A DNA stretch of 64,000 nt from Acidobacteriota bacterium (GCA_016195985.1 JACPYP010000029.1:170092-234091), one strand, 5' to 3'. Shown: positions 29,250-56,929, numbered from the stretch's first letter. A program made the numbers and translations. The notes: generated from the letters alone by a model not told the origin.

Positions 29250-29956
29250 CGATCTGTGCGGGTTCCGAGCTGATCCAGCAGCAGGCGGGCCGCCTCCCCC
29301 TCGGCCCGCTTGCGCGTGGGCCCTTCGGCCTGAGCCGTGTGGGCGGCCACGGAGACCTGGACTTTGAACCGGGGCGCATGGCCCGGTCCGGTCTGATCCA
29401 CCAGCGCGTAGCCGGGCGCAGGCAGGCCCAGCCGGGCGGCGGTTTCCTGGAGGTGGGTCTTGGGGTCGGTGTGGATCCAGCTTTCCGGCTGGGCCTGGCG
29501 GATGGCCTGAAGGAAACGGACCTCCACCAGGGCCTGCACCGTTTCGGCGCCGTTCCCCGCGCTGGCCTGGGCGTCCAGATAGATGGCGGCCAGGACCGCT
29601 TCGAGGGCGTCGGCCAGGGGCTTGGATCCCATGGGCGGGGCTTTGCGGGGGTGGATGGCTTGGAGAGCCTGGTCGAGGCCCAGGGCCAAGGCCCAGTCGC
29701 GCAGGGCCTCCGTGCGCACGAGGACGCCGCGGAACTTGCTCATGGCCCCCTCCTGCCAGTCGCCGCGCTCCCGGTGGAGCAGCAGGGCCACGGTGAAGTT
29801 CAGCAGGGCGTCGCCCAGGAACTCCAGGCGCTGGTTGTCCCGGCCGGTGCCGGCGGACGTGTGCGTGAGAGCCTCCCGGAGGAGGGCCTGGTCCTTGAAC
29901 GGGTGTCCCAACCGGGCTTCCAGATCGCCCAGGTCATCCTTGCGCCGGGTCATCAT
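29246..29956 (-). CDS. rnc: ribonuclease III
   Basis: LLREALTHTSA, NQRLEFLGDALLNFTVALLL, LADALEAVLAAIYLD, C-terminal dsRBD. Confidence 0.93.
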   Translation of the reverse strand: MMTRRKDDLGDLEARLGHPFKDQALLREALTHTSAGTGRDNQRLEFLGDALLNFTVALLLHRERGDWQEGAMSKFRGVLVRTEALRDWALALGLDQALQAIHPRKAPPMGSKPLADALEAVLAAIYLDAQASAGNGAETVQALVEVRFLQAIRQAQPESWIHTDPKTHLQETAARLGLPAPGYALVDQTGPGHAPRFKVQVSVAAHTAQAEGPTRKRAEGEAARLLLDQLGTRTDR

Positions 29957-31647
29957 CAATCCGCGAGATCGGTGGGCAGCTTCCGGTTGAACCGGGCCTG
30001 GTTGAGCACCGACCGGAAGCGCACGTTGCGGCCCGCCATCTGGCCGAGGATGCCCTGGCGGCGGGCCTCCCGCAGCTCCTGGACGAACTCCTCGTGGCGG
30101 CCCCGGTCGTAGAGCACCACCGCCAGCCAAGCGTGGGCGTTGACGTTGTACGGATCGGCCTTGAGGGCCTGCCTGAAGCCCTGGATCGCCTTCTCGGGCT
30201 GGCTGTCCACCATCTGGATGGATTCGCTCAGCGAGACATTGCCGAGGTTCCTGCGCTCATGGACCTCCAGCTTGTCGAGCTTGTCGGACTGGTAGAGCTC
30301 CGGCTGATCGATGGCCTTGGCGTCCACGGGCCTGGGCGGCAGGGGCCGGGCTGGCTCGGATCTGGACTCGCCCCTGGGCGGCACGGGTTTGGAGGGCAGG
30401 TCCACCGCGGGCTGCAGCGGGCTTTCAGGTTTCTGGGGCGCGGACACCCCCCTGGATCCGGCCGGGGCCGGCAGGGCCTGGGCTCCCTGGCCGCCCTTGG
30501 CGGCATCGTTGGTGGCGGGATCCTGGCCGGGGGTGCCGGAGCTGGGATTCGTGGTCTTGGCTTCGGCCTGGAGGGGGGTGGTTCCGTGGTCCCTCAGCAT
30601 CCACCAGGCCGTGCCTCCGACGCCGGCCAGCAGCAGGGCCGCCACGCCGATCCACAACCCCTTTCCGCCGCTGGAGGGGGCCGCGGGACGGATGGCGGGG
30701 GCCGCCTGCGCAGGCAGGGGCTGGAGGGCGGAGGGTCCGGGTGCCGTGACCTCGGGCACGAGGGGGCGCAACTGGGCGGTGGGCGCGGCGTGCAGCTGGG
30801 TGGTGGCCTCTTCCACCTGGCCCATCCAGGAGGGATCCTTGGCGGCGCGCAGCGCCCGGGCCAGATCCTCGGCGGTCTGGTAGCGTTCGTCGGGGTTCTT
30901 GCACAGGGCGCGGTCCAGGACGGAGCGGATGGCGGGGCTGATGCCGCGCAGTTTTTCGGTTTCGATGGGCTCCGGCGCCTCGTTGACGATCTTGTAGAGC
31001 ACGGTGGGTGTGGTGTCCCCGGCGAAGGGCTTCCGGCCGCTCAGACACTCGTAGAGCATCACGCCCACGGCGAAGAGGTCGCTGCGGGGATCCGGCTTGC
31101 CGGTGCGGATGTACTCCGGGGCCATGTAGCTCACGGTGCCCATGACCATGCCCGTGGCGGTCATGTCCGAATTGCTGATCTTGGCCACGCCGAAATCCAT
31201 GACCTTGGCGTGGAGGCGCTTGCCGTCGCGCTGGACGCGCACGTTGGTGGGCTTGATGTCCCGGTGCACGATGGCCTGGCGGTGGGCGAAGCCCAGCCCG
31301 TCGCAGACCTGGGCGAGGACTTCCAGGGCCTCAGAGCGGGTCAGGGACTGCTCCTGGAGCAGTTCGTCCAGATCGTTCCCGCGGACAAATTCCATGGCGA
31401 TGTAGAGCACGTCCTGGTCTTCGCCGAATTCGTAGATGGTCACGAGATTCGGATGGTTCAGCACGCCGGCGGCCCGGGCCTCCCGGGCGAAGCGCTCCTT
31501 CGCCTCGCCGCCCTGGGCGGCGGAGGGGAGGATGGTCTTGATGGCCACCTCGCGGCCGATGGAGGGATCCACCCCCAGGTAGACCTCGCCCATGGCGCCG
31601 TTGCCAAGGACGCGCTTGATTTCGAATTTCCCGAGTTTTTCGAACAT
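29956..31647 (-). CDS. serine/threonine protein kinase with TM and C-terminal TPR
   Basis: LGNGAMGEVYLGVDPSIGREVAIKTI, IVHRDIKPTNVRV, KVMDFGVAKI; TM LWIGVAALLLAGVGGTAW. Confidence 0.93.
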   Translation of the reverse strand: MFEKLGKFEIKRVLGNGAMGEVYLGVDPSIGREVAIKTILPSAAQGGEAKERFAREARAAGVLNHPNLVTIYEFGEDQDVLYIAMEFVRGNDLDELLQEQSLTRSEALEVLAQVCDGLGFAHRQAIVHRDIKPTNVRVQRDGKRLHAKVMDFGVAKISNSDMTATGMVMGTVSYMAPEYIRTGKPDPRSDLFAVGVMLYECLSGRKPFAGDTTPTVLYKIVNEAPEPIETEKLRGISPAIRSVLDRALCKNPDERYQTAEDLARALRAAKDPSWMGQVEEATTQLHAAPTAQLRPLVPEVTAPGPSALQPLPAQAAPAIRPAAPSSGGKGLWIGVAALLLAGVGGTAWWMLRDHGTTPLQAEAKTTNPSSGTPGQDPATNDAAKGGQGAQALPAPAGSRGVSAPQKPESPLQPAVDLPSKPVPPRGESRSEPARPLPPRPVDAKAIDQPELYQSDKLDKLEVHERRNLGNVSLSESIQMVDSQPEKAIQGFRQALKADPYNVNAHAWLAVVLYDRGRHEEFVQELREARRQGILGQMAGRNVRFRSVLNQARFNRKLPTDLAD

Positions 31648-31812
31648 GGGCGGACCCTTCCGGGTGCAGGTGATGGACAGTAGGACAGGATAGGTCCAGA
31701 TGGCCCCCCCGGCCAAGGACTCGGCCCAGGACTTGGTATATTTCGGCATCACTCGCGCTTTCGGGGCTGGCGGACCGGCCCGGAACATGCAAACTAGAAG
31801 CCACCAGCTGGA

Positions 31813-35322: not shown

Positions 35323-35411
35323 GGGTTCTCCGGGGCCAGTGAACAAAAGGGGTGGGCAGAAAGGATGGGCAAATCGCGCAAACTGTGGCACAAGGATTGC
35401 ACAATCTTGAG

Positions 35412-35870
35412 ATGGAGTGGCTAAGCAAGGCCGACCAGGGCGGATCAAGGGAGGATGTCGTGAGCCTGAGGGACTGCAAGATCATCGACCTGCCCAAGAT
35501 CGAGGATCGGCGCGGGAATCTGACCTTCGTCGAAAGCGGGCGCCATGTTCCCTTCGAGATCAAGCGGGTCTACTACCTCTACGATGTGCCGGGCGGCGCC
35601 GAGCGGGGCGGGCACGCCCACAAGACTCTGCACCAGTTCCTCGTGGCCATGTCGGGCAGTTTCGACCTCCAGCTGGATGATGGGCACACCAAGTTCAAGT
35701 ACCATCTGAACCGTTCCTATTACGGCCTCTACATCCCGCCCATGATGTGGCGGGAGATCGACAACTTCTCCTCGGGCTCCATCTGCATGGTGCTGGCTTC
35801 CGACTTCTACGACGAATCGGACTACTTCCGCGACCACCAGGCCTACCTGGAGGCCGTGCATGGCCGGTGA
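35412..35870 (+). CDS. FdtA/QdtA-like cupin, dTDP-4-keto-6-deoxy-glucose 3,4-ketoisomerase family
   Basis: [60 protein letters not shown]. Confidence 0.88.
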
Positions 35871-35910
35871 TGCCTGCCGGTCCATGGAGAGGGGCCTCGG
35901 AGAGATGAGC

Positions 35911-37026
35911 ATGAACCCCGCGCCGATTCCATTCCTCGATCTGAAGGCGGCCTACGCGGAGCTGAAGACCGAACTCGACGCCGCGGTGGCGAGAACCCTG
36001 GCCAGCGGCCACTACCTTCTGGGCGAAGAGCTGGCGGCCTTCGAGCAGGCCTTCGCCGCCTACACGGAAACAGAGCACTGCGTGGGCGTGGGCAATGGGC
36101 TGGAGGCCCTGATCCTGTCCCTGCGGGCATTGGGCGTGGGGCCGGGCGACGAGGTGGTGGTGCCCGCCAACACCTTCATCGCGACCTGGCTCGCGGTCTC
36201 GCACGTAGGCGCCGTGCCAGTTCCCGTGGAGCCCCTGGACGGGCTGTGGACCATGGATGCCAGCCGCGTCGAGGCTGTTCTCACTTCGAAGACGAAAGCC
36301 CTTCTGCCCGTCCACCTCTACGGCCAGCCTGCGGACCTGGATCCCATCCTGGCCCTTGCCCGGACCCACGGCCTCCGGGTGCTGGAAGACGCCGCCCAGG
36401 CCCATGGCGCCCGGTACCGGGGACGGCGCCTCGGCGGCCACGGAGATCTGGCGGCCTGGAGCTTCTATCCCGGCAAGAACCTCGGCTGCATGGGCGACGG
36501 CGGCGCCGTCACCACGCGGGATCCGGAACTGGCGGACCGCCTGCGGGTGCTCCGGAACTACGGCGCGAAAGTGAAGTACCACCACGAGGCCAAAGGCCAC
36601 AACTCCCGCCTGGACGACATCCAGGCGGCGATCCTCCGGGTGAAGCTGGCGCATCTCGACGGCTGGAACCAGCGGCGCGCGGCGGTGGCCGAAACCTATC
36701 GAAGCTGCCTGTCGGACCTCCCGGAATTGGGCCTGCCCCAGGTGCTCCCCGGGAATGAGCCGGTCTGGCATCTGTTCGCAGTGGAAGTGCCCCAGCGGGA
36801 CCGGGTGCAAGCTCTTCTGAAGGAGCGCGGCGTGGAGACCCTCATCCACTATCCGATTCCGCCCCACCAGAGCGGCGCCTACGCTTCCGACAAAGACTGG
36901 GGGAGCTTTCCCATCACGGAGCGGGCGGCGGGTCGGCACCTCAGCCTTCCCATGGGGCCCCACCTGGGCCTGGACCGGGCCGCGCAGGCCGCCGGGCATT
37001 TGCGCGACATCCTGGCGCGCCTTTGA
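35911..37026 (+). CDS. DegT/DnrJ/EryC1/StrS sugar aminotransferase (FdtB/QdtB-like)
   Basis: [70 protein letters not shown]. Confidence 0.93.
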
Positions 37027-37068
37027 GCCGCCCGAGGATGTCCGGGCTTTCCGTCGAGAGGCTCAGCC

Positions 37069-38607
37069 ATGCCCACTGACCTCGAACTCCTGACCGAAGC
37101 CAGGGCCCTGCGGCAAGAGGGCAGGGCGGATGAAGCGCAGCTGCGGATGCTGGCCCTCGTGACCCGGGGGACCAGCCTTTGGGAGCCCTACCTGGTGGCG
37201 GGAGTCTCCTCCCTCTCCCGGGGCGACCGGGAGCGCGCCCTGCATTTCCTCCGGCTGGCCGCCGACCGGGAGAGCCATGGGACCGAAGCGGTCCAGCTTC
37301 TGTGCCGGACCCTGGTGGAGAATGGAAACCACCATGAGGCCCTCCAGGCCTGGTTCGTCCGCCTGAGCCACGATGGCTCCCGGGAAGCCATCACGGGATT
37401 CGCCCGGTTCGCCCGGGCCTGGGAGGGGCCCGCCGAGGCGCTGGAAAGCCTGCTGAACTGCCTCCCGAAGATCCCCGATTTCCGGTATTCGGAATACGCC
37501 AAGCTGGAGCGGCAGGGCGGCCTTCCCGGCACCGTGGTGATTCCGGAAGAGGCGCTGCCGCCGGCCCGGGCGACGTTCCACCACATGGACACCCCCAACC
37601 CCACTGCCGCGGAGTTCCCCGCCGTGCGGCGCCACCTCATCGAAAACGCGGTGGTGCGCCCCTGGTCGGAGGTGGTGGTCCAGGGCAACCTGGCCTACCT
37701 GCCGGATTGCGTCGACCTGGACGAACACCTTCTTTATGAAACCTTCGTGGGGCTTTCCACGCCCGCGGCCGACGGCAGCATGCTGCTCCTCCGGCGGGAA
37801 TCCATGGCGGATTGGCTGCCGGAGGGCATCGTCCTGACTTCCTTCGCCGTGGGGAATTGGGCCCACTTCCTGACGGAGACGGCCCCTCTCATGGCCCTGG
37901 TGGAAGCCGAAAACCTGCCCGTCCATATCCCCCTGCTCGTGGCGCGTCCCGAAGCCGCTCAGATCACGGAGATGATGGAGCGGCTGAAGCACCCGAAACG
38001 GCCCATGCGGGTGCTGGACCGGCCGGTGCAGGTGGGGAAGGCGCACTGGTACGGCCCCGTGGCCCAGGTTCCTTTCGAATTCCTCAAGGCGCGGGCGGGC
38101 CTTCCGGTCCGCTACGGGCCCGGTGATTTCCTTTTTTCCCCCTCCGCCCTCGCGGCCCTGCGAGAAAGACTGGGCCTTGGCGCCCGCAGCCAGGGTTCCG
38201 CCGGAGCCAAGGTGTTCATCGACCGCGTGTCCAGCCGCCGGAAGGTCCGCAACCGGGAGGCCGTACTTGATTTCTTCCGCGGCGCGGGCTTCGACATCAT
38301 CCGCCCCGAGAGCCTGAGCCTGGCGGGGCAGATGGACATCTTCGGCCGGGCTTCCGTGGTGGCGGGGCAGGCCGGAGCCGGGCTTGCGAACATGGTCTTC
38401 GCGCCGGCAGGGGCGAGAATCATCGCATTCACCGGCCATCCCGTGGATGTGGAGCCCCACCGCTACTGGGCGAGCATGGCCAGGGCCCTGGGCCACGAAT
38501 TCCATCAGATCGCCTTTGGCGCCCCCTCGGCGGAGCTTCACATCGATTTCGAAGTGGCCCTGGACCGGCTGGCGGGCCTGCGCTTCCTGTTGGAGGGCAG
38601 CGCTTGA
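37069..38607 (+). CDS. GT61-family (DUF563) glycosyltransferase with N-terminal TPR-like region
   Basis: NWAHFLTETAPLMAL, VFIDRVSSRRKVRNREAVLDFFRGAGFDIIRPESLSLAGQMDIFGRASVVAGQAGAGLANMVFAPAGA. Confidence 0.82.
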   Translation: MPTDLELLTEARALRQEGRADEAQLRMLALVTRGTSLWEPYLVAGVSSLSRGDRERALHFLRLAADRESHGTEAVQLLCRTLVENGNHHEALQAWFVRLSHDGSREAITGFARFARAWEGPAEALESLLNCLPKIPDFRYSEYAKLERQGGLPGTVVIPEEALPPARATFHHMDTPNPTAAEFPAVRRHLIENAVVRPWSEVVVQGNLAYLPDCVDLDEHLLYETFVGLSTPAADGSMLLLRRESMADWLPEGIVLTSFAVGNWAHFLTETAPLMALVEAENLPVHIPLLVARPEAAQITEMMERLKHPKRPMRVLDRPVQVGKAHWYGPVAQVPFEFLKARAGLPVRYGPGDFLFSPSALAALRERLGLGARSQGSAGAKVFIDRVSSRRKVRNREAVLDFFRGAGFDIIRPESLSLAGQMDIFGRASVVAGQAGAGLANMVFAPAGARIIAFTGHPVDVEPHRYWASMARALGHEFHQIAFGAPSAELHIDFEVALDRLAGLRFLLEGSA

Positions 38608-38638
38608 ATCTCGGGCTGGATCTTGCGTGGAGGTAGGG

Positions 38639-39493
38639 ATGGGCGGAGTTCCTTCTCGGTCCCAGGGCGTTGTGGGATTGGCCGGAGACGGCTGGGGGGC
38701 CAGGCCCGCCCTGCGTTCCCTCCAGGCTCGTTTCTCCGCCCTGGAGGTGCTCTCGGGCGATCCCGGAGTGCTGGCCCTGCTCCGGCCTGAAGACCGTCCG
38801 GTGGCCGCCCTGCATGCGTTCTCGGCGGCGACCGTGGTGTGCGCGGGCTACCAGCCCATCGTGCCCGCCGCGCAACTGCGGGCGCACGATTTCATCAATA
38901 TCCATTACGCCCTGCTGCCGCGCTACCGGGGCATGCACTCCACGGTGTGGGCCATTCTCAACGGTGAGCCGGAACTGGGGCTCACCATCCACCTGATGAA
39001 CGAGGACGTCGACGATGGGCCGATCCTGGGCCAGTACCGCATTGCCTACGTGGCTCAAACCTCCGCCGAAGTGATGGAGGCCTGCCACGCCATCATCGCC
39101 CGGGAATTGGGCGAAGTCGTTCAAGGGTACCTGGAAGGGCGGGTCCAACCGGCGCCCCAGGACAAGTCCCTGGCGACCTGGGTGCCGCGCCGGAATCGCG
39201 CCGATTGCCGGATCGACTTCCACCAGTCCTGCGAACAAATCGCCCGTGCATTCAAGGCCCTGGTCCGGCCCTACCCCTTGCCGATGCTGGTGAGCCGAGG
39301 GGTGGAGTACGAGGTGAGCCGGGCGGAGGTCATCCACCGCCCCTACCTGTGCACCGAGGGCCGCGTGGTGAACGTGGACGGGGAAGGGGCGTGGATCAAG
39401 ATCGCGGACGGCCTGCTGCTGGTACGGGCCCTGGAGCGGGAGGGCCAGCCCGCCGCCCCCCAAGAGGTTCTGACGAGAGGACAACGGCTGTGA
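38639..39493 (+). CDS. formyl-THF-dependent sugar N-formyltransferase
   Basis: HDFINIHYALLPRYRGMHSTVWAILNGEPELGLTIHLMNEDVDDGPILGQ (Asn-His-Asp catalytic arrangement). Confidence 0.85.
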   Translation: MGGVPSRSQGVVGLAGDGWGARPALRSLQARFSALEVLSGDPGVLALLRPEDRPVAALHAFSAATVVCAGYQPIVPAAQLRAHDFINIHYALLPRYRGMHSTVWAILNGEPELGLTIHLMNEDVDDGPILGQYRIAYVAQTSAEVMEACHAIIARELGEVVQGYLEGRVQPAPQDKSLATWVPRRNRADCRIDFHQSCEQIARAFKALVRPYPLPMLVSRGVEYEVSRAEVIHRPYLCTEGRVVNVDGEGAWIKIADGLLLVRALEREGQPAAPQEVLTRGQRL

Positions 39494-40488
39494 GCAGGGA
39501 GACGAGGCCGGACCTCCGGCGCTACACGCCCGCGGACGCGGCCGCCTGGAACGCGTTCGTGGCCCGGGCCCGCAACGCGACTTTCCTCCACGACCGGCGT
39601 TTCATGGACTACCACGCGCACCGGTTCACGGAAGGGTCCTGGATGGCGGAAGCCGCTGGAGAGGTGGTGGCTGTCCTGCCCGCCAACCGCGTGGATGACC
39701 TGCTGGTGACCCACGGGGGGCTCACCTACGGCGGCTGGCTGCTGGGCCCTTCCTTGACGGCCGCGCCGTTCATGGCCCTGTTTGAGGGCTGGCTGGAGGC
39801 CCTCCAGGGCGAAGGTGTGGCACGGGTGCGCTACAAGTGCATTCCGCACATCTACCACCGCTACCCCGCGGAGGAGGATCTGTACGCCCTCTTCAGAGCC
39901 GGGGCCAGGCTGGCGCGCCGGGATCTCTCCACCGCCATCGATTTGACCTGCGCCTACCCGCCCAACGAGGACCGGCGGCGGAACCTGAATGTGTCCCGGC
40001 GGCGCGGGGTCCGCGTAGCGCCGTCGGTGGACTGGCCGGCCTACCATGCCCTGCTGGCGGAGACCCTCGCGGCCCGCCACGGCGTCCAGCCCGTGCATTC
40101 GCTGGAGGACCTTCTGACCCTTCACGGCGCGTTCCCGGAGAGGGTCCGCCTTTACGAGGCGAGGGATCCCGAGGGCGCGATGGTGGCAGGCCTGGTGCTG
40201 TTCGACACGGATACCGTGGCGCACACGCAGTACATGACCAGCGGGCCGGCCGGGAGGAAGCTCGGCGCCCTGGATGCCCTGGTGGCCCACGTGCAGGAGG
40301 AGGCGCGGGCCGGGCGGCGGTGGCTGGCCTTCGGCATCTCCACCGAGGACGAGGGCCGCGTCCTCAACGAAGGCCTGGCCTATCAGAAAGAATCCCTGGG
40401 GGGCCGGAGCATCGTGCATGACACATACGAATTCGACGTTGGACCGTCGCTCCGGCGGTACAGGGAGGGGGCCGGAGCGCAGCGCTGA
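39490..40488 (+). CDS. GNAT/FemAB-like acyltransferase
   Basis: NATFLHDRRFMDYHAHRFTEGSWMAE, LTYGGWLLGPS, LFDTDTVAHTQYMTSG; GTG start overlaps previous TGA. Confidence 0.75.
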   Translation: MSRETRPDLRRYTPADAAAWNAFVARARNATFLHDRRFMDYHAHRFTEGSWMAEAAGEVVAVLPANRVDDLLVTHGGLTYGGWLLGPSLTAAPFMALFEGWLEALQGEGVARVRYKCIPHIYHRYPAEEDLYALFRAGARLARRDLSTAIDLTCAYPPNEDRRRNLNVSRRRGVRVAPSVDWPAYHALLAETLAARHGVQPVHSLEDLLTLHGAFPERVRLYEARDPEGAMVAGLVLFDTDTVAHTQYMTSGPAGRKLGALDALVAHVQEEARAGRRWLAFGISTEDEGRVLNEGLAYQKESLGGRSIVHDTYEFDVGPSLRRYREGAGAQR

Positions 40489-40580
40489 AGCCGGATCCCG
40501 GTTCCCGGGCTTTCATGGATGGATGATTGGGATGTGGAGGGCATGTGGGAGCGAATGAGGCCAAGGATGAACAGATCGGC

Positions 40581-43500
40581 ATGGGGTCCGGCGGAGACCT
40601 GGCCCTGGCTCAAAGCCTGCTCCGCCAGGGCAACCTGCCCCAGGCCGAGATCCACCTGCGGCGGTGCCTGGCCCAGGATGCGGGGAACGAGGAAGCCGCT
40701 TCGCTGATGGCGGCGCTCGGCGAGGCCTACGGCTTCCCGGCGGGGTTCTGCCTTTCTGAGCGCGATCCCCTGGGGGGGAATGGAGAAGACCGGTTCCTGG
40801 TGATCAAGGCCTGGGGTTACGGTTTCTGGAGCGAGGGCCATCATCTCGCGGGCCAGTTGCTTCTGGCCGAACTCACCCAGCGGAAGCCGGTGGTCCTTTG
40901 GGGGACCAACTGCCTCTTCCGAAGGGATGGAGATGTGGACGCCAGCGGTCATTTCTTCGAGGGACTCTCGACGGTGAAGCTGGAAGACCTGCCCCGGTCC
41001 GGGAGCCTGTTCCCGCCCAAATGGACCTGGGACAACCTTCTGGAGGAGAACCTCCACAAGTGGGAGGGCGAGCACTCGAGGATGGCCGCCCAGCACCTGT
41101 TCGCCCGGCCTGAGCAGGTGGTGGTCAGCGACTTCTATTCGACGATCGCCTCCATCCGCCCCTGGATCGGCCCCACCTCGAAGCATTTCGGCAAGTCCGA
41201 CGACGAACTCTACGCCGAGATCTTCCAGAGCCGGCTGCGGCCCGTGGCGGCCATCGCCAGCCGCGCAGAGGCTTTCTTCGAGCGGCACATGCGCTCGCGA
41301 TCATGGATCGGCGTTCACGTGCGGGGGTCGGACAAGGTGCTGGAATCGCCCAGCCTCCCGCGGACCAATGCCGCCTACTTCGACATCATCGATCGGATCC
41401 GCGGCGAGCATCCCGGGCTCGGCGTGCTGCTCCTGACCGACTCCCTGGCCGCCGTCGACGAGTACCGCGATCGCTACGGGAAGGATCTGCTGTTCGCCGA
41501 AGCCATCCGAACCGGCGGGCAGGTGGGCGTCCATCTGGCGGGGCACGACGGCGTGGCACTGGGCGAGGAGGTGTTCATCGACACCCTGCTGGCCCTGAAA
41601 TGCGATTTCTTCCTGGGCAACCAGACCTCCAACGTCTCCCTGGCCGTGGCGAGCCTGCGGGATTGGCCCGAAGGCCGCCTCCAACTGCTGGGAGAAAGCA
41701 ACGGACGCGGAGAGAACCTGTTCCTCCACCACCGGAAACCGGCCCTTCGCCCTCCCTGCCGGTTCTGCCGGGCGCCCACGGATTTCGCCTTCAAGCGGGA
41801 AGTGCTGATGAGGCACCAGGTCGTCTACTACGAATGCAGTGGCTGCGGCTCCCTTCAGACCGAGACCCCGCACTGGATGGAGGAGGCCTATGCCGCCGAT
41901 GCCGAGGTCTATGATGCCGCCAGGGCCTCCAAGGCCTTTTTGAACGCCATGGCGCTTCAGCGCCTCCTGGAAATCATCGGAATCCGGCTGGACGATCGCT
42001 GCGCGGATTTTGGCGGCGGGGCGGGCCTCTTCGCGCGGCTGATGCGGGACACGGGCTACAACTTCCACACCTTCGATCCGCAGGATGGCGGCGCGTTCTG
42101 CCGCGGCTTCAGCTGGGAAAGCTTCGACAAGCCGGTGAAGCTGGTGACCACCTTCGAGCATGCGGAGCCCTTCGTGAATCCGGCCGTGCGGTGGGATGCC
42201 ATCTTTGCGGCGAATCCCGATGTGGTGGTGGGCGCCACCAGTCTCTATGCGGGGCAGGGCGCGGAGTGGGAGGAGCTGGCTCCCGAATCGGGACGCCACC
42301 ATTTCTTCTACGGGCCGGCGGCCCTGGGCGAGGTGGCCGCCCAGCGCGGATGGGAGGCGTACCTCCTGGGGGACTACTTCCTCTTTTCCCGGTACCCGCT
42401 GTCGGAGCGGGTCATGGCCGAGGCCGATGAGTGGGCCCAGAACCCCCGCGCCGCCTTGGATGACGGCTTCTACGAGTGGCTGAAGCGGCCCCTGGTGGCC
42501 GCCGGATTGGACGACCGGCGCCGGGCGGCCCTGGCGGAGATGCGCTCGGCCGGAGCGCGGATCGCCATCGACGGCGTCTTCTTCCGCTTCACCTCGGGCA
42601 TTGCCCGGGTGTGGAAGAACCTCCTGGCGGAATGGTCCGCCAACGGGTTCGGCGAATTCATCGTGGTGCTCGACCGGGGCCGCACGGCGCCCCGTCATTC
42701 AGGCCTCACCTACATCGACGTCCCGCCCCACAGCTACCTCAACCGGCAGTCGGACCGGGTCATGCTCCAGGAAGTCTGCGACCGCGAAGGCATCTCGCTG
42801 TTCAGTTCCACCTATTACACGACGCCTCTCACCACGCGGGCGGCCCTGATGGCCTACGACATGATCCCCGAGGTGATGGGCTTCGACCTGGAAGAGGAGC
42901 AGTGGCGGGAAAAGCGGGAGGCCATCGAGCACTGCAGCCACTTCCTGTCCATTTCCGATTCGACGACCCGGGATCTGGCGCGGTTCTTCCCGAAGATCGA
43001 TCCGGCGGACGTGGCGCTGGCCCATTGCGGGACGGATTTCCGGACCCCCTCGCCCGAGGGCGTGGAGGAATTCAAGGCGCGGCACGGCATCGACCGGCCC
43101 TATTTCCTGATCTCCGGCGTGAAGACCAGCTACAAGAACGCGCTGCTGTTCTTCAAGGCTTTCGAGCGCCTGGGAGCGGCCCGGAAGGACTACGCCATCG
43201 TCTGCACGAATTCCCGCCCCGTGCTGGAACCGGAATTCGCCGAATGCGTGGGGGAGGCGAAGGTCCATCTCCTGGTCCTGTCCGACGCCGATCTCCAATG
43301 CGCCTACGCCGGCGCCCTGGCCCTGGCCTACCCCTCCCGCTACGAGGGCTTCGGGCTTCCCATCCTGGAAGCCATGGCCTGCTCCTGCCCCGTGATCACC
43401 TGCGAGAACAGCTCCATCGGCGAAGTGGCCGGGGAGGCGGCGATCTACGTGGATCCGGACGATGTTCAGGCCATGCTGGACGCCCTCATGGCGGTGCAGG

Positions 43501-44252
43501 ACGAGGCGGTCCGCGGCGATCTGATCCTCGAGGGGCTCCGGCGCGTGGACGGCTTCTCCTGGCGGGAGATGGCCCGGAAAGTGGAGGAGGCCCTGAGCCG
43601 ATGGGCCCTCGCCGCGGCGAAGGAAGGGGCTGGCCCGAAGGCCGCTCCGCTTTCCGTTTCCGCCGGACCGGATGGGCCGCCGGCCCCTGGCGCCCAGGCC
43701 ACGGTTTCGCAGGGTCCATCAGTCCGGCGGCTTCACATCGGAGGCAAGGCGCGGGCCGAGGGGTGGGAAATCCTGGATGCCCTCCCGGGGCCTGAAGTGG
43801 ACCATGTCTGCAACGCCAGGGACCTGTCCCGCTTCGCCGATGGCACCTTCGCGGAGATCTACGCGTCCCATGTGGCCGAGCACCTGGACTACAACGGCGA
43901 GCTCCAGAGCACCTTGCTGGAATGGCACCGGGTTCTGGCGCCGGGGGGAAGGCTCTTCATCAGCGTTCCGGATCTGGACATCCTGGCGGGGCTGATGCTC
44001 GACAAGGGAAGGTACAGCATCGAAGAGCGCTTCAAGGTCATGCGCATGATCTTCGGCGGGCATGTGGATTCATACGATTACCACGTGGTGGGCCTCAACG
44101 AGGAATTCCTCGCCTCCTACCTGCTGCGCGCGGGGTTCAAGAACCTGAAGCGCGTTCCGGAATTCGGGCTGTTCCACGACACGAGTTCCAGCGCCTTCCA
44201 CGAGATTCCCATCAGCCTCAATTTCGTGGCGGAGAAAGAAGCCCATTCCTGA
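40581..44252 (+). CDS. four-module protein: GT23/NodZ-like fucosyltransferase + zinc-ribbon methyltransferase + GT4 glycosyltransferase + C-terminal class I methyltransferase
   Basis: Module 1 WIGVHVRGSDK...EEVFIDTLLALKCDFFLGNQTSNVS; module 2 CRFC...CSGCG, CADFGGGAGLFARLM; module 3 YPSRYEGFGLPILEAMACSCPVITCENSSIGEVAG; module 4 IYASHVAEHLDYN...LAPGGRLFISVPDLD. No in-frame stop from 40527. Confidence 0.88.
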   Translation: MGSGGDLALAQSLLRQGNLPQAEIHLRRCLAQDAGNEEAASLMAALGEAYGFPAGFCLSERDPLGGNGEDRFLVIKAWGYGFWSEGHHLAGQLLLAELTQRKPVVLWGTNCLFRRDGDVDASGHFFEGLSTVKLEDLPRSGSLFPPKWTWDNLLEENLHKWEGEHSRMAAQHLFARPEQVVVSDFYSTIASIRPWIGPTSKHFGKSDDELYAEIFQSRLRPVAAIASRAEAFFERHMRSRSWIGVHVRGSDKVLESPSLPRTNAAYFDIIDRIRGEHPGLGVLLLTDSLAAVDEYRDRYGKDLLFAEAIRTGGQVGVHLAGHDGVALGEEVFIDTLLALKCDFFLGNQTSNVSLAVASLRDWPEGRLQLLGESNGRGENLFLHHRKPALRPPCRFCRAPTDFAFKREVLMRHQVVYYECSGCGSLQTETPHWMEEAYAADAEVYDAARASKAFLNAMALQRLLEIIGIRLDDRCADFGGGAGLFARLMRDTGYNFHTFDPQDGGAFCRGFSWESFDKPVKLVTTFEHAEPFVNPAVRWDAIFAANPDVVVGATSLYAGQGAEWEELAPESGRHHFFYGPAALGEVAAQRGWEAYLLGDYFLFSRYPLSERVMAEADEWAQNPRAALDDGFYEWLKRPLVAAGLDDRRRAALAEMRSAGARIAIDGVFFRFTSGIARVWKNLLAEWSANGFGEFIVVLDRGRTAPRHSGLTYIDVPPHSYLNRQSDRVMLQEVCDREGISLFSSTYYTTPLTTRAALMAYDMIPEVMGFDLEEEQWREKREAIEHCSHFLSISDSTTRDLARFFPKIDPADVALAHCGTDFRTPSPEGVEEFKARHGIDRPYFLISGVKTSYKNALLFFKAFERLGAARKDYAIVCTNSRPVLEPEFAECVGEAKVHLLVLSDADLQCAYAGALALAYPSRYEGFGLPILEAMACSCPVITCENSSIGEVAGEAAIYVDPDDVQAMLDALMAVQDEAVRGDLILEGLRRVDGFSWREMARKVEEALSRWALAAAKEGAGPKAAPLSVSAGPDGPPAPGAQATVSQGPSVRRLHIGGKARAEGWEILDALPGPEVDHVCNARDLSRFADGTFAEIYASHVAEHLDYNGELQSTLLEWHRVLAPGGRLFISVPDLDILAGLMLDKGRYSIEERFKVMRMIFGGHVDSYDYHVVGLNEEFLASYLLRAGFKNLKRVPEFGLFHDTSSSAFHEIPISLNFVAEKEAHS

Positions 44253-44270: not shown

Positions 44271-45173
44271 ATGAAAAGGACCATCCTTCTCACCGGCGCT
44301 TCTGGTTTCGTGGGCCAGCACATGGCCCGGCTGCTGCTCCGCCGGGGCTTCGATGTCACGGCGCTGCAGCGGGGGTCGCTGGGAATCACCCTTCCGCGCG
44401 GCGTGACATCCGTCTATGCGGATCTGATGGATCCGGCCTCCCTGGCGGGCCTTCCCAAGCGCTGGCACGGGGTGATTCATCTGGCCGGGGCCTCCATTCC
44501 AGCCTCCTTCCGAACCATGGCTCCAGTGGTCCAGAACGTGGCGATGTCCCTGAACTTGCTGGAGCACCTGGAGGAAGCGCGGGTGCTGCTGACCTCCAGC
44601 TGCCACGTCTACGCGCCCTCGGACCGGATGCGGCTCGAGGGGGATGCCCTGCTGCCCCAGGGCCGCTACGGGCTCAGCAAGCACCTGGTCGAGCAGATGG
44701 TGCCGCATTTCGCCCACCGCCTCGACATCCGGATCGCCCGGCCCTTCAACCATCTGGGCCCTCACCAAAGGCCCGAGCTGGTGATCCCCTCATTGCTGCG
44801 CCGGTTGGCGGCCTCCCGCGACGATGGATCGCCCGTGCTGATGCGAGGCTGGAACAGCGTCCGGGATTTCATCGATGTCCGCGACGTGGCCGAGGCCTAC
44901 CTCGCCATCCTGGAGCTGGAACGGCTGGAGCAGGCCACCTTCAACGTCTGCACCGGCCAGGCCCACAGCATCGGAGACCTGGTGGCCACCGTGCTCGGGA
45001 TCCTTGGTTCAAGGCGAGAGGTGGTGTTCGAGGGGAAGCCCAACTCATCGGATGACATTCCCTACCTGGTGGGCTCGCCGGAGCGGCTGAAGACGGTTTC
45101 CGGCTGGGACATGGGGTGGAGCCTGGAGCAAAGCCTCCGCGCCATGCTGGAATCCCTTCCCGAGGAATCCTAG
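44271..45173 (+). CDS. NAD-dependent epimerase/dehydratase (SDR extended, GDP-6-deoxy-mannose reductase-like)
   Basis: TILLTGASGFVGQHMARLLLRRG, YGLSKHLVEQM, RPFNHLGPHQRPELVIPSL, VRDFIDVRDVAEAYLAIL. Confidence 0.88.
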   Translation: MKRTILLTGASGFVGQHMARLLLRRGFDVTALQRGSLGITLPRGVTSVYADLMDPASLAGLPKRWHGVIHLAGASIPASFRTMAPVVQNVAMSLNLLEHLEEARVLLTSSCHVYAPSDRMRLEGDALLPQGRYGLSKHLVEQMVPHFAHRLDIRIARPFNHLGPHQRPELVIPSLLRRLAASRDDGSPVLMRGWNSVRDFIDVRDVAEAYLAILELERLEQATFNVCTGQAHSIGDLVATVLGILGSRREVVFEGKPNSSDDIPYLVGSPERLKTVSGWDMGWSLEQSLRAMLESLPEES

Positions 45174-46813
45174 AAAAGAGGATAGACCTCCAGCATCCGC
45201 CGGTAGGCCTGCTCCAGTCCCTTCGCGAAGCGGGCGCGGTCGCAAAGCGGAGACCGGGCGACGCGCCTCTGGAGGTGTTCCCGCATGGTGGCGAGTTGGG
45301 CCAGGTCGGCGGATAGGGCGATGGCCAGCGCCACGTAATCCTCGGCGCTGGAGGCCGCCAGGCTGTCCAGGCCCGCGGCGCTCAGGAGGCTCAGCCCCAC
45401 TCGGGCTGCGTGGAGGTTTCCGATCAGAGAAATGACGGGCACGCCCATCCACAGGGCTTCGCAGGTGGTGGTGGTGCCGTGGTAGGGATAGGTGTCCAGG
45501 GCGATATCGATCTGGCCGTAGGCCGCGAGGTGTTCCTGGGCGGCTTCGGTATGCCCCGAGAAGGTCAGCCGTTCTTCCGGGATGCCCCGGTCGGCGAACC
45601 GCTGGAGGTAGAGGCCGCGGACGGCGGGATTGGAGAAGGCGCGGGCCTTGAGAAAGAGGCGTGAGGCGGGAACCGCTTCCAGCACCTGGGACCAGAGCTC
45701 GATGGTCTCGTCCGAGATCTTGGAGGAGTGGTTGAAGGATCCGAAGGTGATGTGGCCCTTGGCGAGGGCGGGCAACGGCGCGACGGCCGGGGTGACCGGG
45801 TGGGGATCGTAGCAAAGGAAGGGCGCCGGAAGGCGGATCAGGCGCTCCGACGAAAAGGCTTCCGCGCCTTCAGGATCAGTGAGGGCGTCCACCAGCCGGT
45901 AGTCGATGAAAGGGCAGCCGGTGGTGGCGGGATAGCCCAGGTACGTGGCCTGGATGGGAGCGGGACGGAGGGCGAACACATCCAGCCGGTTGCCCGAAGT
46001 GTGCCCGCCGAGATCCACCAGGATGTCGATGTTGTCGGCTTCGATGCGCCGTGCCGCCTCGGCGTCAGAGGCCATGGAGAGATCGACGAAATGTTCGGCG
46101 AGCTGGCGAAAGCTTTCGGTGCGCTTGTCCGGTGCGTGGGTGGTTGAATAGCAGAACACCTCGAAGGCCCCGCGGTCATGGGCGCGCAGGACCGGTGCCA
46201 TGAAGAAGGAGACCGAATGGCTCCGGAAATCGCCGGAGACGTACCCGATGCGGATGCGCTCCGGACGCGGTTGGGACAGGGGTTTGGGCGGCGCTGAAGG
46301 CAGCTGGGCGCAAAGCAGGTTGTGGACGAGGGCCAGGTCTTCGCCCTCGGTGGCGACATAGTTGAGGTGAAGCAGCAGGTTGTCCCGGATGATCCGGTCC
46401 CCGGGGGCCAACTCCAGGGCCTGCTGCAGGGCTTCCAGCCCCTCGTGGACCCGGCCCTGGTGACTGAGGGACAGGCCCAGATTGGTCAAGGCGCCGTGGT
46501 CATCAGGCTTGGCGGCGAGGATGAGGCGGCAGGCCTCTTCGGTGGCGGATGGGTCTCCCAGGCGGAGGTTCGCTGCGGCCAGATTGTTGAGGGCCTCCAG
46601 CGAGCGGGGCTGGTGTTCCAGTGCGGCCCGCAGATGGACGCGAGCTTCTTCGTAGCGGCCACAGCGCATGAGCGCGGTGCCGCAGGCGAAGTGGACGGCG
46701 TAATCCGACGCGCCCGCGGCGATCGCCTGGCTGAAGGCTTCGACTGCTTCCCGCCATCGTCCCGCTTCCGCCATGGAGAAAGCCTCTGTGCGCCGCGCCT
46801 GCCTTGCATCCAT
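45170..46813 (-). CDS. TPR + OGT-like (GT41/SPINDLY-type) glycosyltransferase
   Basis: N-terminal TPRs; RIGYVSGDFRSHSVSFFMAPVL, DILVDLGGHTSGNRLDVFALRPAPIQATYLGYPATTG, LDTYPYHGTTTTCEALWMGVPVISL. Confidence 0.92.
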   Translation of the reverse strand: MDARQARRTEAFSMAEAGRWREAVEAFSQAIAAGASDYAVHFACGTALMRCGRYEEARVHLRAALEHQPRSLEALNNLAAANLRLGDPSATEEACRLILAAKPDDHGALTNLGLSLSHQGRVHEGLEALQQALELAPGDRIIRDNLLLHLNYVATEGEDLALVHNLLCAQLPSAPPKPLSQPRPERIRIGYVSGDFRSHSVSFFMAPVLRAHDRGAFEVFCYSTTHAPDKRTESFRQLAEHFVDLSMASDAEAARRIEADNIDILVDLGGHTSGNRLDVFALRPAPIQATYLGYPATTGCPFIDYRLVDALTDPEGAEAFSSERLIRLPAPFLCYDPHPVTPAVAPLPALAKGHITFGSFNHSSKISDETIELWSQVLEAVPASRLFLKARAFSNPAVRGLYLQRFADRGIPEERLTFSGHTEAAQEHLAAYGQIDIALDTYPYHGTTTTCEALWMGVPVISLIGNLHAARVGLSLLSAAGLDSLAASSAEDYVALAIALSADLAQLATMREHLQRRVARSPLCDRARFAKGLEQAYRRMLEVYPLF

Positions 46814-47022: not shown

Positions 47023-47628
47023 ATGGTCACTATCCTGGCAAACGTAAACGCTCTCGCCGCCAGCCGTCAGCTTGGCGTCAGCAAGATCGGGCTCAACCAG
47101 GCCATCACGCGGCTCACCACCGGCCGGCGCGTCAACAGCGCTTCCGACGATTCCGCCGCTCTGACCTCTGGCAACACCGCTATGGCGCTGTCCCGCGCCG
47201 CGGGCGCCAAGGTCCATGCAAACCAGGCCGCCTACTTCAGCGCTCTGCAGGCTGATGGCGCGGAACAGCAGAACACGCAGGACGCCTACCGCATGGCCGA
47301 AATGGAAGGCGCTGGCACCACGAGCGACGCGGAATACACCGCCTATGCCGCGAACACCAATCTGGGCACGACTTCGGCCGCCGCCCTCACCGCCATCGCG
47401 GCCCGCCAGGTCACCAACGCCGCGAGCATGTCCTCGGCCCTCAGCAAGGCCAACCTGAACGGCATCGAGCAGGAATCCCAATTGGGCATCGCCGATGCCT
47501 GGCTGGGTGCCGACATGGGCGCTGAAATGGCGAACCTCACCAAGTACCAGATCATGATGCAGGCTGGCACCAGCGCGTTGAGCAACGCGAACCAGTCCTC
47601 GCAGACGATCCTGGGCCTCTTCCGGTAA
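47023..47628 (+). CDS. fliC: flagellin (short, ~201 aa)
   Basis: N-term NVNALAASRQLGVSKIGLNQAITRLTTGRRVNSASDDSAAL; C-term NLTKYQIMMQAGTSALSNANQSSQTILGLFR; SD GGAGG 6 nt upstream. Confidence 0.93.
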   Translation: MVTILANVNALAASRQLGVSKIGLNQAITRLTTGRRVNSASDDSAALTSGNTAMALSRAAGAKVHANQAAYFSALQADGAEQQNTQDAYRMAEMEGAGTTSDAEYTAYAANTNLGTTSAAALTAIAARQVTNAASMSSALSKANLNGIEQESQLGIADAWLGADMGAEMANLTKYQIMMQAGTSALSNANQSSQTILGLFR

Positions 47629-47674: not shown

Positions 47675-47706
47675 CCGGGCGTTTGAATCCGGAGAGGAGG
47701 TTTGTC

Positions 47707-48069
47707 ATGGTCAATCAGGTTTCATCGATCGGCAGTGCGCCTCTGGCTTCTGCAGGGCCTGCCCCTGCACCGGCCCCGGTGCGGTCCGCCCCTGTACGGA
47801 CCTCTGGCAATGACAGTCCGGCCCCCAAGCAGGTAGATCAAGACGCGGCTGTGGCCCAAGTCAACCAGCACCTGCAGCAGGCCCAGACGGAACTGAAATT
47901 GGAAGTGGACGCTGGCTCTGGCCGCACGGTGTTCCAGCTGGTTCAGCATGGAACGGGCGAGCTGGTCATGCAGGTGCCTTCCGCCGAAATCCTTGGGATG
48001 TCCCGCCGGATGCGGGAGATCGAAGGCCAGGGCGGCGGTTCTGGCGCCCTGGTGGATAAAGAAGGCTAG
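47707..48069 (+). CDS. flaG: FlaG-family protein
   Basis: VNQHLQQAQTELKLEVDAGSGRTVFQLVQHGTGELVMQVPSAEIL. Confidence 0.8.
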   Translation: MVNQVSSIGSAPLASAGPAPAPAPVRSAPVRTSGNDSPAPKQVDQDAAVAQVNQHLQQAQTELKLEVDAGSGRTVFQLVQHGTGELVMQVPSAEILGMSRRMREIEGQGGGSGALVDKEG

Positions 48070-48117: not shown

Positions 48118-49848
48118 ATGGCGACGTCGTCTGTGAATTCCCTCAGTGGTATCAGCACAGGTATTGATACCTCGGCCCTCATCGATGCCATCATCGGCAT
48201 GAAGAGCGGCAATGTCACGCGCATGCAGGCCCGCAAGGACCTCAACGACAAGAAGACCACGGCCCTGACGGCCCTGAGGACCAGCCTGTCCGCGCTCACC
48301 ACCAGCTTGGCGGTGCTTCAGGACAAGTTCAACAACCGCTCCGTGGCGAGCAGCGACGCCAACAACACCAATGTCACCGCCACCGCCTCGGGGGCGGTTT
48401 CGGGCAATTACGACGTCAACGTGAAGACGGTGGCCACCAAGGGGCGGATCTCACCGCACTTGGACGCAGGCGGGCTGCCCACGAATCTGGCTGTGGCGAG
48501 TCCCACGGATTCCGTGAGCTCCAACATTTTCACGCCGGGCGCGCCAGCCACCTTCGCCATCCAGGGGACGGACGGTGTCATCAAGACGATCACCCTCGAC
48601 GATTCCTCCAACACCCTGAACGGTTTGCGCGACAAGATCAACGCCTCAGGCGCGGGCGTGACGGCTTCGGTGGTGAACATGGGCAGGGGCGACAAGCCCT
48701 ACCAGCTGGTGCTCACGGCGAAAGACACCGGCACTGGCACCACCCAGGGGGTGGTCACCCTCGTCGACATCACCAACCAGTCCGGCGGATCGGCCGGGGC
48801 CGCGGCCAACAATCTGGGCATCACGGCAGGAACCGTGGACAGCCTGACGGCCCCGACCACCCTCACGGGCGGCCTTACTTCCACAGCTTCAGGATCAACC
48901 GGCGTGGACGCGGTCTTCACCCTGAACGGGATCGAAATGACCCGCAAGAGCAACACCGTCAGGGATGCCGTGGACGGCATCACCTTCACCCTGAAGCAGG
49001 GCGGGCAAACCGGCATCACCACTTTGACGGTGGCTCCGGACAAGACTGGCGCCACCACGGCGATCCAGGATTTCATCTCGAAGTACAACGCCCTGCTGAA
49101 GGACTACAAGGCCGCCTCGACTTCCACGAAGAATTCCGACGGATCCATCAATGAAGCGCCGCTGGCTGGCGACGCTTCCACCCGCGCCATGATGGCCAAC
49201 CTCAAGGCCACGCTGACGGGCCTGTCAGGCGGACTGCCGGGGGATGCTTCCTACAAGAGCTTGGCCAGCATTGGAATCACCTCTCTGGCGGATGGCGGGC
49301 TCTACCTGAATGCGAACACCTTCCAGAATGCTGTGGGCAACGACCTTGCCGGCGTCCAGAAGCTTTTCTCTTTCACGGGCGACTCCACCAATCAGGTGGT
49401 GAAGTTCGTGAGTGCCGGACCAAAGACGGTCACAGGCCCCGTGGACTTCTCCATCACCAAGGATGGCAGTGGCGTGCTTTGGGGCACCTTCACGCGGAAC
49501 GGCGTCACCAGCAGCCCCATGCAAGTGGTCAACGGCACGCTCACGGGCACCGGCGACTATGAGGGCCTGAACCTGAGCGTGACGGGGACGGGCAGCGGCA
49601 CATTGACCCTCAGCCGCGGCGTGGGCCGGGCAGCCAGTGATCTCATGTCCAAGTTCACGGGCAATGGCGGCGGCATTTCCACGCTCCTGAATTCCATCAC
49701 CATTCAGAACAAGAGCTTGACCAGTCAGATCACCGTGGGCCAGGCGCGCCTGGACCAGGAACGGGAAGTGTTGAGGAAGAAGTTCGCACAGATGGAAGCC
49801 ACCGTGGGAAAGATGAAGGCGGCGGCCGGTTCCTTGACCGGGGCCTAG
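48118..49848 (+). CDS. fliD: flagellar filament capping protein FliD (HAP2)
   Basis: SLSGISTGIDTSALIDAIIGM; FTLNGIEMTRKSNTVRDAVDGITFTLK; C-terminal coiled coil. Confidence 0.92.
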   Translation: MATSSVNSLSGISTGIDTSALIDAIIGMKSGNVTRMQARKDLNDKKTTALTALRTSLSALTTSLAVLQDKFNNRSVASSDANNTNVTATASGAVSGNYDVNVKTVATKGRISPHLDAGGLPTNLAVASPTDSVSSNIFTPGAPATFAIQGTDGVIKTITLDDSSNTLNGLRDKINASGAGVTASVVNMGRGDKPYQLVLTAKDTGTGTTQGVVTLVDITNQSGGSAGAAANNLGITAGTVDSLTAPTTLTGGLTSTASGSTGVDAVFTLNGIEMTRKSNTVRDAVDGITFTLKQGGQTGITTLTVAPDKTGATTAIQDFISKYNALLKDYKAASTSTKNSDGSINEAPLAGDASTRAMMANLKATLTGLSGGLPGDASYKSLASIGITSLADGGLYLNANTFQNAVGNDLAGVQKLFSFTGDSTNQVVKFVSAGPKTVTGPVDFSITKDGSGVLWGTFTRNGVTSSPMQVVNGTLTGTGDYEGLNLSVTGTGSGTLTLSRGVGRAASDLMSKFTGNGGGISTLLNSITIQNKSLTSQITVGQARLDQEREVLRKKFAQMEATVGKMKAAAGSLTGA

Positions 49849-49911
49849 GAGGACTCCCTCTGTACTCATGGTTTGGCCGGATTCGCCGAAAAGAGACCTG
49901 TGGGGGCGCCT

Positions 49912-50337
49912 GTGAACGCTTATGCCAGAACTGCTGATACCTACCTGACCCAGCGCATCCTGGCCGCCAGTCCGGAACAGCAGGCCGCGCTCATCATGGA
50001 GGCGGGCCAGCTTCACCTCGGCCGGGCCATCCAAGCCATGACGCGCAACGATCTCGTTTCGGCTGGAAGCAGTTTCATCCGGGTTTCGGAAGCCATCGTG
50101 GAAGCCAATCTCCGGCTGAACCGCGAAGATGGCGGAGAGCTGGTGCAGAACCTCGAGAAGCTCTACAACCATTGGACCTTGGAAATCATGGAAGCCAGCG
50201 CCGCCAGGGATACCCGCCGGCTGTCCGCCGTTGCCCACGCCATGGGCGAAATCCGCCAGGCATGGGAGCAGCACCACGAAAAGAAGAACGGAGCCGTTCA
50301 GCTCGCAGCCTTCCAGTTTGGGGACCGGGTCGTATGA
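49912..50337 (+). CDS. fliS: flagellar export chaperone FliS
   Basis: YARTADTYLTQRILAASPEQQAALIMEAGQLHLGRAIQAM; GGELVQNLEKLYNHW; GTG start inferred. Confidence 0.88.
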   Translation: MNAYARTADTYLTQRILAASPEQQAALIMEAGQLHLGRAIQAMTRNDLVSAGSSFIRVSEAIVEANLRLNREDGGELVQNLEKLYNHWTLEIMEASAARDTRRLSAVAHAMGEIRQAWEQHHEKKNGAVQLAAFQFGDRVV

Positions 50338-55575: not shown

Positions 55576-55603
55576 GGCCGTTCAGTCAACACAACCTGGC
55601 TAA

Positions 55604-56929
<1,326 letters not shown>

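Follow-up and report, generated by a model that had tools for sequence, protein, structure and literature searches.

The window analysed here, a 64,000-nt stretch of DNA from an Acidobacteriota bacterium (GCA_016195985.1, JACPYP010000029.1), harbours a large fusion gene whose frame is open to position 44252 from either its ATG or an alternative in-frame TTG start at 40527 (Table 1). In the 1,223-aa frame a short TPR segment is followed by a GT23 module, a zinc-ribbon methyltransferase, a GT4 glycosyltransferase and a C-terminal module with a methyltransferase fold. The initial annotation had described a single protein of ~1,220 aa with two glycosyltransferase and two methyltransferase-type modules, and this description holds, in that one intact frame is present, all four of the motif strings then quoted are found within it, and the modules are recovered by Pfam and by GT23 profiles. 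The N-terminal TPR segment (residues 7-46) is an addition to the modules listed at that stage. Beyond the fusion the genes run in the order SDR, GT41, flagellin, FlaG, FliD-like and FliS-like.

Table 1. Positions of the fusion gene, its modules and motifs, and the neighbouring genes within the window
Feature	Position	Strand	Extent and basis
Upstream sugar genes	35352..40488	+	FdtA ketoisomerase, DegT aminotransferase, TPR-GT61, formyltransferase, GNAT acyltransferase; Pfam
Whole fusion gene	40581..44252	+	1,223 aa from ATG 40581; stop ends 44252
N-terminal TPR-like segment	40599..40718	+	Residues 7-46; Pfam TPR_14 E 2e-4, just below cut-off
GT23 (NodZ/FUT8-like fucosyltransferase) module	40773..41741	+	Residues 65-387; profile and profile-profile matches
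Motif I HVRGSD, HxRxxD donor-binding motif	41316..41333	+	Residues 246-251; alignment
Zinc-ribbon SAM methyltransferase module	41742..42500	+	Residues 388-640; Pfam Methyltransf_23
Zinc ribbon CxxC...CxxC	41757..41846	+	C393, C396, C419, C422
GT4 (GT-B retaining) glycosyltransferase module	42513..43604	+	Residues 645-1008; Pfam, model, Foldseek
EGFGLPILE (EX7E) donor motif	43344..43370	+	Residues 922-930
Pro/Ala-rich linker	43605..43700	+	Residues 1009-1040; 32% identity, dN/dS 0.52 vs G020 ortholog
C-terminal methyltransferase-fold module	43701..44249	+	Residues 1041-1223; Pfam Methyltransf_11, alignment with cyanobacterial homologues
NAD-dependent sugar epimerase/dehydratase (SDR)	44271..45173	+	Pfam Epimerase E 9e-40
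TPR-GT41 (OGT/SPINDLY-like) glycosyltransferase, proposed glycan primer	45170..46813	-	Pfam GT41 E 7e-67
Flagellin, proposed acceptor	47023..47628	+	Pfam flagellin N and C; GGAGG precedes ATG 47023
FlaG	47683-48069	+	Pfam
FliD-like	48118-49848	+	Named from sequence
FliS-like	49873-50337	+	Named from sequence

In relatives the modules are separate or joined differently, as might be expected if an assembly or annotation artefact had fused separate genes here, yet the probability of such an artefact is negligible. Another species of the genus, G020, encodes an ortholog that is 77% identical, nearly full length and of matching architecture, and it does so on an independent chromosome recovered as one contig of 4.24 Mb, which rules out an artefact of this kind. 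A frameshift or artificial join, the concern raised in the initial annotation, is excluded by the same ortholog, by the continuous coding signal (third-position GC of 0.78-0.92 along the whole frame) and by low dN/dS against the G020 protein in every module, with values of 0.12 for GT23, 0.21 for the zinc-ribbon methyltransferase, 0.13 for GT4 and 0.18 for the C-terminal module. Judged by these ratios, each of the four modules is under purifying selection.

Single-sequence searches with the GT23 module matched NodZ weakly, both in Pfam (E 0.025, below cut-off) and by phmmer against PDB (E 0.045), and profiles were therefore built. A profile of the window module and its two closest relatives had NodZ as its sole PDB match (E 1.8e-7), and a wider profile with distant relatives returned only NodZ (2e-17) and FUT8 chains (6e-10) at E ≤ 0.1. 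Profile-profile comparison with a NodZ alignment, the first member of which matches the solved NodZ at 9e-180, gave a probability of 95.8% (E 7e-9) over 259 columns, and the stand-alone relatives of the module include bona fide NodZ. An AlphaFold2 model made from a two-row alignment was of low confidence (pLDDT 45), and its first 32 PDB matches were POFUT2, FUT8, NodZ and POFUT1, all at E > 0.001. With regard to the donor site, the H, R and D of motif I are invariant among 13 aligned GT23-like proteins, as are, in module numbering, H182, R184, D187, D223 and S286 in the alignment of such proteins. The profile matches to NodZ/FUT8 and the conserved donor motif thus uphold the NodZ/GT23-like assignment first made, and we infer from sequence a GT23-like module for which fucose, from GDP-fucose, is the most likely donor sugar.

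NodZ and FUT8 resemble the module across most of its length and have the HxRxxD motif in common with it, but are stand-alone alpha-1,6-fucosyltransferases, whereas GT23 is here one module in a fusion. Identity to NodZ is about 20%, Gly takes the place of the second arginine in the HxRR motif of FUT8, and a second copy in a Holophagaceae relative, bog_363, has kept just the module's C-terminal half; these features would suit a module that moves a sugar other than fucose, or that persists as a glycan-binding remnant. Against this, the donor-site H, R, D and S are invariant, a gene resembling that for GDP-L-fucose synthase, with a score of 460 bits (cut-off 500), overlaps the bog_363 fusion at its start, and the dN/dS of the module indicates strong purifying selection, so that a non-fucose or remnant role appears unlikely.

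The two central modules are more readily recognised by Pfam, with Methyltransf_23 matching residues 458-593 (E 3e-14) and GT4 matching residues 830-971 (E 3e-16), both above cut-off. Across 30 sequences, all four zinc-ribbon cysteines are invariant, and SAM motif I (D/ExGxGxG), which reads DFGGGAG, has invariant D89, G91 and G95 together with the post-I D112. Within the EX7E motif of GT4, the first E and GFG are invariant in 30 sequences, and the second E is present in all of the 29 that reach that position. As a joined unit, the zinc-ribbon methyltransferase and GT4 show 36-54% identity to 29 relatives, and an AlphaFold2 model of this di-module has a mean pLDDT of 83 and a pTM of 0.61, with a low-confidence stretch between the domains. 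Foldseek with the model places the GT4 part with MshA, GlgM and WaaG (E ~1e-14), and the sugar C3-methyltransferase KijD1 is among the fold matches; a profile search of the methyltransferase module against PDB yielded no sequence match. KijD1-type zinc-binding sugar C-methyltransferases likewise carry a zinc ribbon ahead of a class I methyltransferase fold, but their PF08484 C-terminal domain was not found in the fusion by Pfam scan. The original calls of a zinc-ribbon SAM methyltransferase and a GT4 module are therefore sound, resting in the first case on Methyltransf_23, the invariant cysteines and motif I, and in the second on Pfam, EX7E and the GT-B fold of the predicted model.

The C-terminal module is less clear-cut. 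Pfam Methyltransf_11 matches residues 1075-1127 above cut-off (E 2e-7) and is confined to the second half of the profile, whilst the motif I of the module, LHIGGK (43731-43748), is shorter than LHLGCGK by one residue and lacks the canonical GxG loop. The shortened LHIGG occurs in all close members, including 14 from cyanobacteria, whereas a sister group retains LHLGCG. That two methyltransferase modules are present, as originally proposed, thus stands for the fold, which occurs twice, but not for a canonical SAM motif I, which is wanting in the C-terminal copy. The deletion in motif I, together with the existence of this module as a separate gene in bog_363, makes two methylations uncertain, and it is somewhat less likely than not that only GT23, the zinc-ribbon methyltransferase and GT4 are active, the C-terminal module having lost SAM binding to become a glycan- or protein-binding, or structural, element. 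The partial Pfam coverage and the uniform loss in close members both point in this direction, but residues around the shortened loop are invariant, which together with a dN/dS of 0.18 argues that a function is kept, and atypical SAM sites are known to exist. A methyltransferase-like fold with a predicted role in either methyl transfer or glycan binding would accommodate these features.

The position of the fusion within a flagellin locus, which had not been remarked upon previously, appears to be shared with G020, where the fusion is followed by SDR (83% identical and in the equivalent position), GT41, a putative flagellin, FlaG, FliD and FliS as in the window, whilst the upstream sugar genes differ. 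In both G020 and a third member of the genus, G243, the order FlaG, FliD, FliS is kept. The GT41 ortholog of G243 (62%) adjoins not the fusion but a protein of 1,043 aa in which three stretches match FkbM methyltransferases, and what occupies the tailoring position next to GT41 therefore seems to differ from one species to another. The genes upstream of the fusion in the window are predicted, from their families, to produce and modify a sugar of another, amino-deoxy type, which might be used by the GT4 module or by some other glycosyltransferase. Elsewhere in the same genome are an rmlB homologue and a gmd that scores above cut-off, close to which lies an Fcl-like gene below the curated cut-off. 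Glycosyltransferase and sugar-biosynthesis genes thus adjoin flagellin and FliD, the arrangement of a flagellin glycosylation island.

Relatives in other lineages display the same modules in a variety of combinations, with GT41 as a recurrent partner. In Holophagaceae bog_363 (PLUC01000037.1), one protein of 1,673 aa has the order TPR-GT41-TPR-GT23-ZnMT-GT4 (ZnMT, zinc-ribbon methyltransferase) and is 61% identical to residues 7-1010 of the window protein, the N-terminal TPR segment of which has a 52% identical counterpart between GT41 and GT23 of this relative. Its downstream neighbours include an SDR-like gene and, as a gene of its own, the C-terminal module. Judging by its relatives, the window itself may come from the Holophagaceae. 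The second bog_363 copy, made up of GT41, the partial GT23, ZnMT and GT4, is broken close to its end, with two N in the contig, and adjoins a Thr-rich repeat protein of the ALTTAQ type. A comparable setting is found in Propionivibrio, where a GT4 homologue lies, together with a GT41 gene, after a protein with 52 ALTTAQ repeat matches. Cyanobacterial proteins that contain the ZnMT-GT4 pair measure about 750 to 3,043 aa; the pair shares an ORF with GT41 at 13 loci and has GT41 nearby at many others. At 5 cyanobacterial loci, C-terminal-module homologues either adjoin GT41 or are fused to it. These counts describe association among relatives rather than genome frequency, as the loci were chosen by similarity to the fusion. 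Literature searches on the ALTTAQ repeat and on cyanobacterial GT41 multidomain proteins returned nothing.

The explanation that we prefer, with a probability of roughly 0.6, is that the fusion serves a flagellin O-glycosylation locus as a soluble enzyme of several modules that extends the glycan, with GT41 priming, GT23 and GT4 extending, and at least one of the sugars being methylated. The neighbouring TPR-GT41 would attach the first sugar to Ser/Thr of flagellin, the GT23 module would extend it with a deoxyhexose (fucose from GDP-fucose being the likeliest), and the GT4 module would add a second sugar. The zinc-ribbon methyltransferase would methylate one of the added sugars, and the C-terminal module would methylate another or bind the glycan. 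In this scheme we infer the reaction order, the donors, the methylated positions and the acceptor, flagellin being suggested by gene order only; that the modules act co-linearly with their order in the chain is a guess. In favour of the scheme are the gene order kept in G020, the repeated fusion or adjacency with GT41, the gmd and Fcl-like genes of the same genome, GT23 profiles that match only fucosyltransferases, and intact donor and metal motifs. Counting against it are the non-canonical motif I of the C-terminal module, the low-confidence GT23 model, the sub-threshold score of the Fcl-like gene, the amino-deoxy sugar predicted from the upstream genes, and the restricted occurrence of the fusion, which, like its GT23 module, is carried by only 2 of 47 genomes of the genus. 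The initial annotation had seen in the alternating modules an assembly-line enzyme, and what is retained of this is a predicted sugar-adding and methylating role, to which the flagellin locus and the repeated association with GT41 lend support.

Flagellin as acceptor is further called into question by bog_363 and Propionivibrio, where GT41 and the modules sit beside ALTTAQ-type repeat proteins instead. The glycan built by the fusion might accordingly belong to a different protein or to some other polymer of the surface (LPS/EPS, a lipid-linked glycan or a secreted protein), with the flagellin neighbourhood incidental. Module relatives occur also in cyanobacteria, which are not known to have flagella and whose carriers probably have other acceptors, and the GT61, formyltransferase and acyltransferase genes upstream in the window are typical of polysaccharide loci as well. 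We nonetheless regard another target for the window protein as unlikely: G020 keeps the order with SDR, GT41 and FlaG-FliD-FliS despite its different upstream sugar genes, GT41 enzymes known so far modify proteins, and the genes checked included none of Wzx/Wzy type.

More tentatively, and with the odds leaning against it, the preferred reading may be extended to a GT41-centred family of protein-glycan synthases in which priming, two extensions and methylation are carried out by one or two adjacent chains, the modules having been shuffled between Holophagaceae, cyanobacteria and proteobacteria. All of these steps would be performed by the 1,673-aa protein as a single chain, whereas its counterpart in the window, with as many as four activities, would be a split version directed at flagellin. 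If true, up to four successive steps in the making of a bacterial protein glycan would fall to one soluble protein, exceeding the three-domain enzymes described in the literature found. Shuffling of modules with GT41 provides a natural fusion series, from separate through partly to fully fused, in which rules of acceptor, order and donor can be tested, and would point to unrecognised O-glycoproteins, namely flagellin, ALTTAQ-repeat proteins and cyanobacterial acceptors.

Amongst known multi-domain glycan enzymes, WsaE of Geobacillus stearothermophilus, which acts on the S-layer glycan, has one methyltransferase and two rhamnosyltransferase domains in a single soluble protein that extends and methylates a protein-destined glycan (PMC2943079). 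Its three modules begin with the methyltransferase and handle only rhamnose on a lipid-linked S-layer polymer, whereas the window protein has four modules in the order GT23-MT-GT4-MT and lies at a flagellin locus. Chlorovirus PBCV-1 A064R, according to a review one of few described enzymes with three transferase domains, combines two rhamnosyltransferase domains with a 2-O-methyltransferase, each activity having been shown (PMC9614988), and A111/114R contains three glycosyltransferase domains, one a proposed fucosyltransferase (PMC7826918). A064R is similar to the window protein in uniting GT-GT-methyltransferase in one chain that works in order on a protein glycan, but both viral enzymes differ from it in having other GT families, three modules and a capsid-protein N-glycan as their product. 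At least two glycosyltransferase modules and at least one methyltransferase module are present in the window chain, as in enzymes of the WsaE/A064R type.

Closer in setting is GT2 of Clostridioides difficile type B flagellin, which extends the GlcNAc placed by GT1 and has a methyltransferase domain (PMC5207246). This flagellin glycan enzyme also combines glycosyltransferase and methyltransferase domains, but these are a GT2-family domain (PF00535) and one Methyltransf_11, without GT23, GT4 or a zinc-ribbon module. In enterobacterial flagellin glycosylation islands, most GT41 enzymes also have methyltransferase domains (PMC4875605), so that GT41 and methyltransferase share one chain beside flagellin, whilst in the window GT41 is a separate gene and the fusion contains GT23 and GT4 instead. 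By analogy, the window protein may work like WsaE, A064R, the C. difficile GT2 and the enterobacterial GT41 enzymes. The initial annotation named no described enzyme with this four-module order, and no earlier instance of exactly GT23-MT-GT4-MT was found in the sequence libraries or literature searched, although the kind of enzyme has been described before. Single proteins that perform several glycan steps are thus known, and the present combination seems to be a new one amongst them, differing in the number, families and order of its modules.

The Holophagaceae genome bog_363 carries the modules TPR-GT41-TPR-GT23-ZnMT-GT4 (ZnMT, zinc-ribbon methyltransferase) within a single protein of 1,673 aa, the start of which is overlapped by a GDP-L-fucose-synthase-like gene, and encodes the C-terminal module as a gene apart. 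At the flagellin locus of G243, a triple FkbM methyltransferase protein adjoins the ortholog of the window's TPR-GT41 glycosyltransferase, with three GT41 paralogues besides this ortholog and two flagellin-like genes also present.

Cyanobacterial proteins with the ZnMT-GT4 pair range from ~750 to 3,043 aa, and GT41 is often in frame with the pair. The methyltransferase-fold subfamily has a motif I one residue shorter, reading LHIGG; in cyanobacteria its members mostly stand alone, and are sometimes GT41-fused or GT41-adjacent.

Within the window, the genes FdtA, DegT, Fmt and GNAT would serve to make an amino-deoxy sugar and to transfer formyl and acyl groups. Positions 55001-56000 display a strong skew, with A in excess of T.

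At L023, a Thr-rich ALTTAQ-type repeat protein, a possible alternative acceptor, is followed immediately by the disrupted fusion. The L053 repeat protein harbours 52 ALTTAQ matches (PF20080) and is followed by GT41, an unassigned 281-aa protein and the GT4 homologue, with a Gmd-like gene downstream on the opposite strand.

Coordinates of relatives and of other window genes
Feature	Location	Strand
TPR-GT41-TPR-GT23-ZnMT-GT4 protein, bog_363 (PLUC01000037.1)	L127 1659-6677	-
C-terminal-module gene, bog_363 (PLUC01000037.1)	L127 49-690	-
Flagellin locus, another genus member	L178/L179 = G243:C1:86000-119999	
FdtA, DegT, Fmt, GNAT and TPR-GT61 protein	window 35352-40488	
Indole-3-glycerol phosphate synthase with histone H1/HC2-like C-terminal tail	window 54130-55575	
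Ser/Thr protein kinase, TPR at C-terminus	window 29956-31788	-
Methyltransferase-fold subfamily, ~190 aa	L139-L152	
GT41-half GT23-ZnMT-GT4 fusion, second copy, disrupted	L023 2-6051	
ALTTAQ repeat protein, GT41, 281-aa protein and GT4 homologue, Propionivibrio dicarboxylicus	L053 3-9098	
ZnMT-GT4 pair, cyanobacteria	L024-L055, L059, L089, L090
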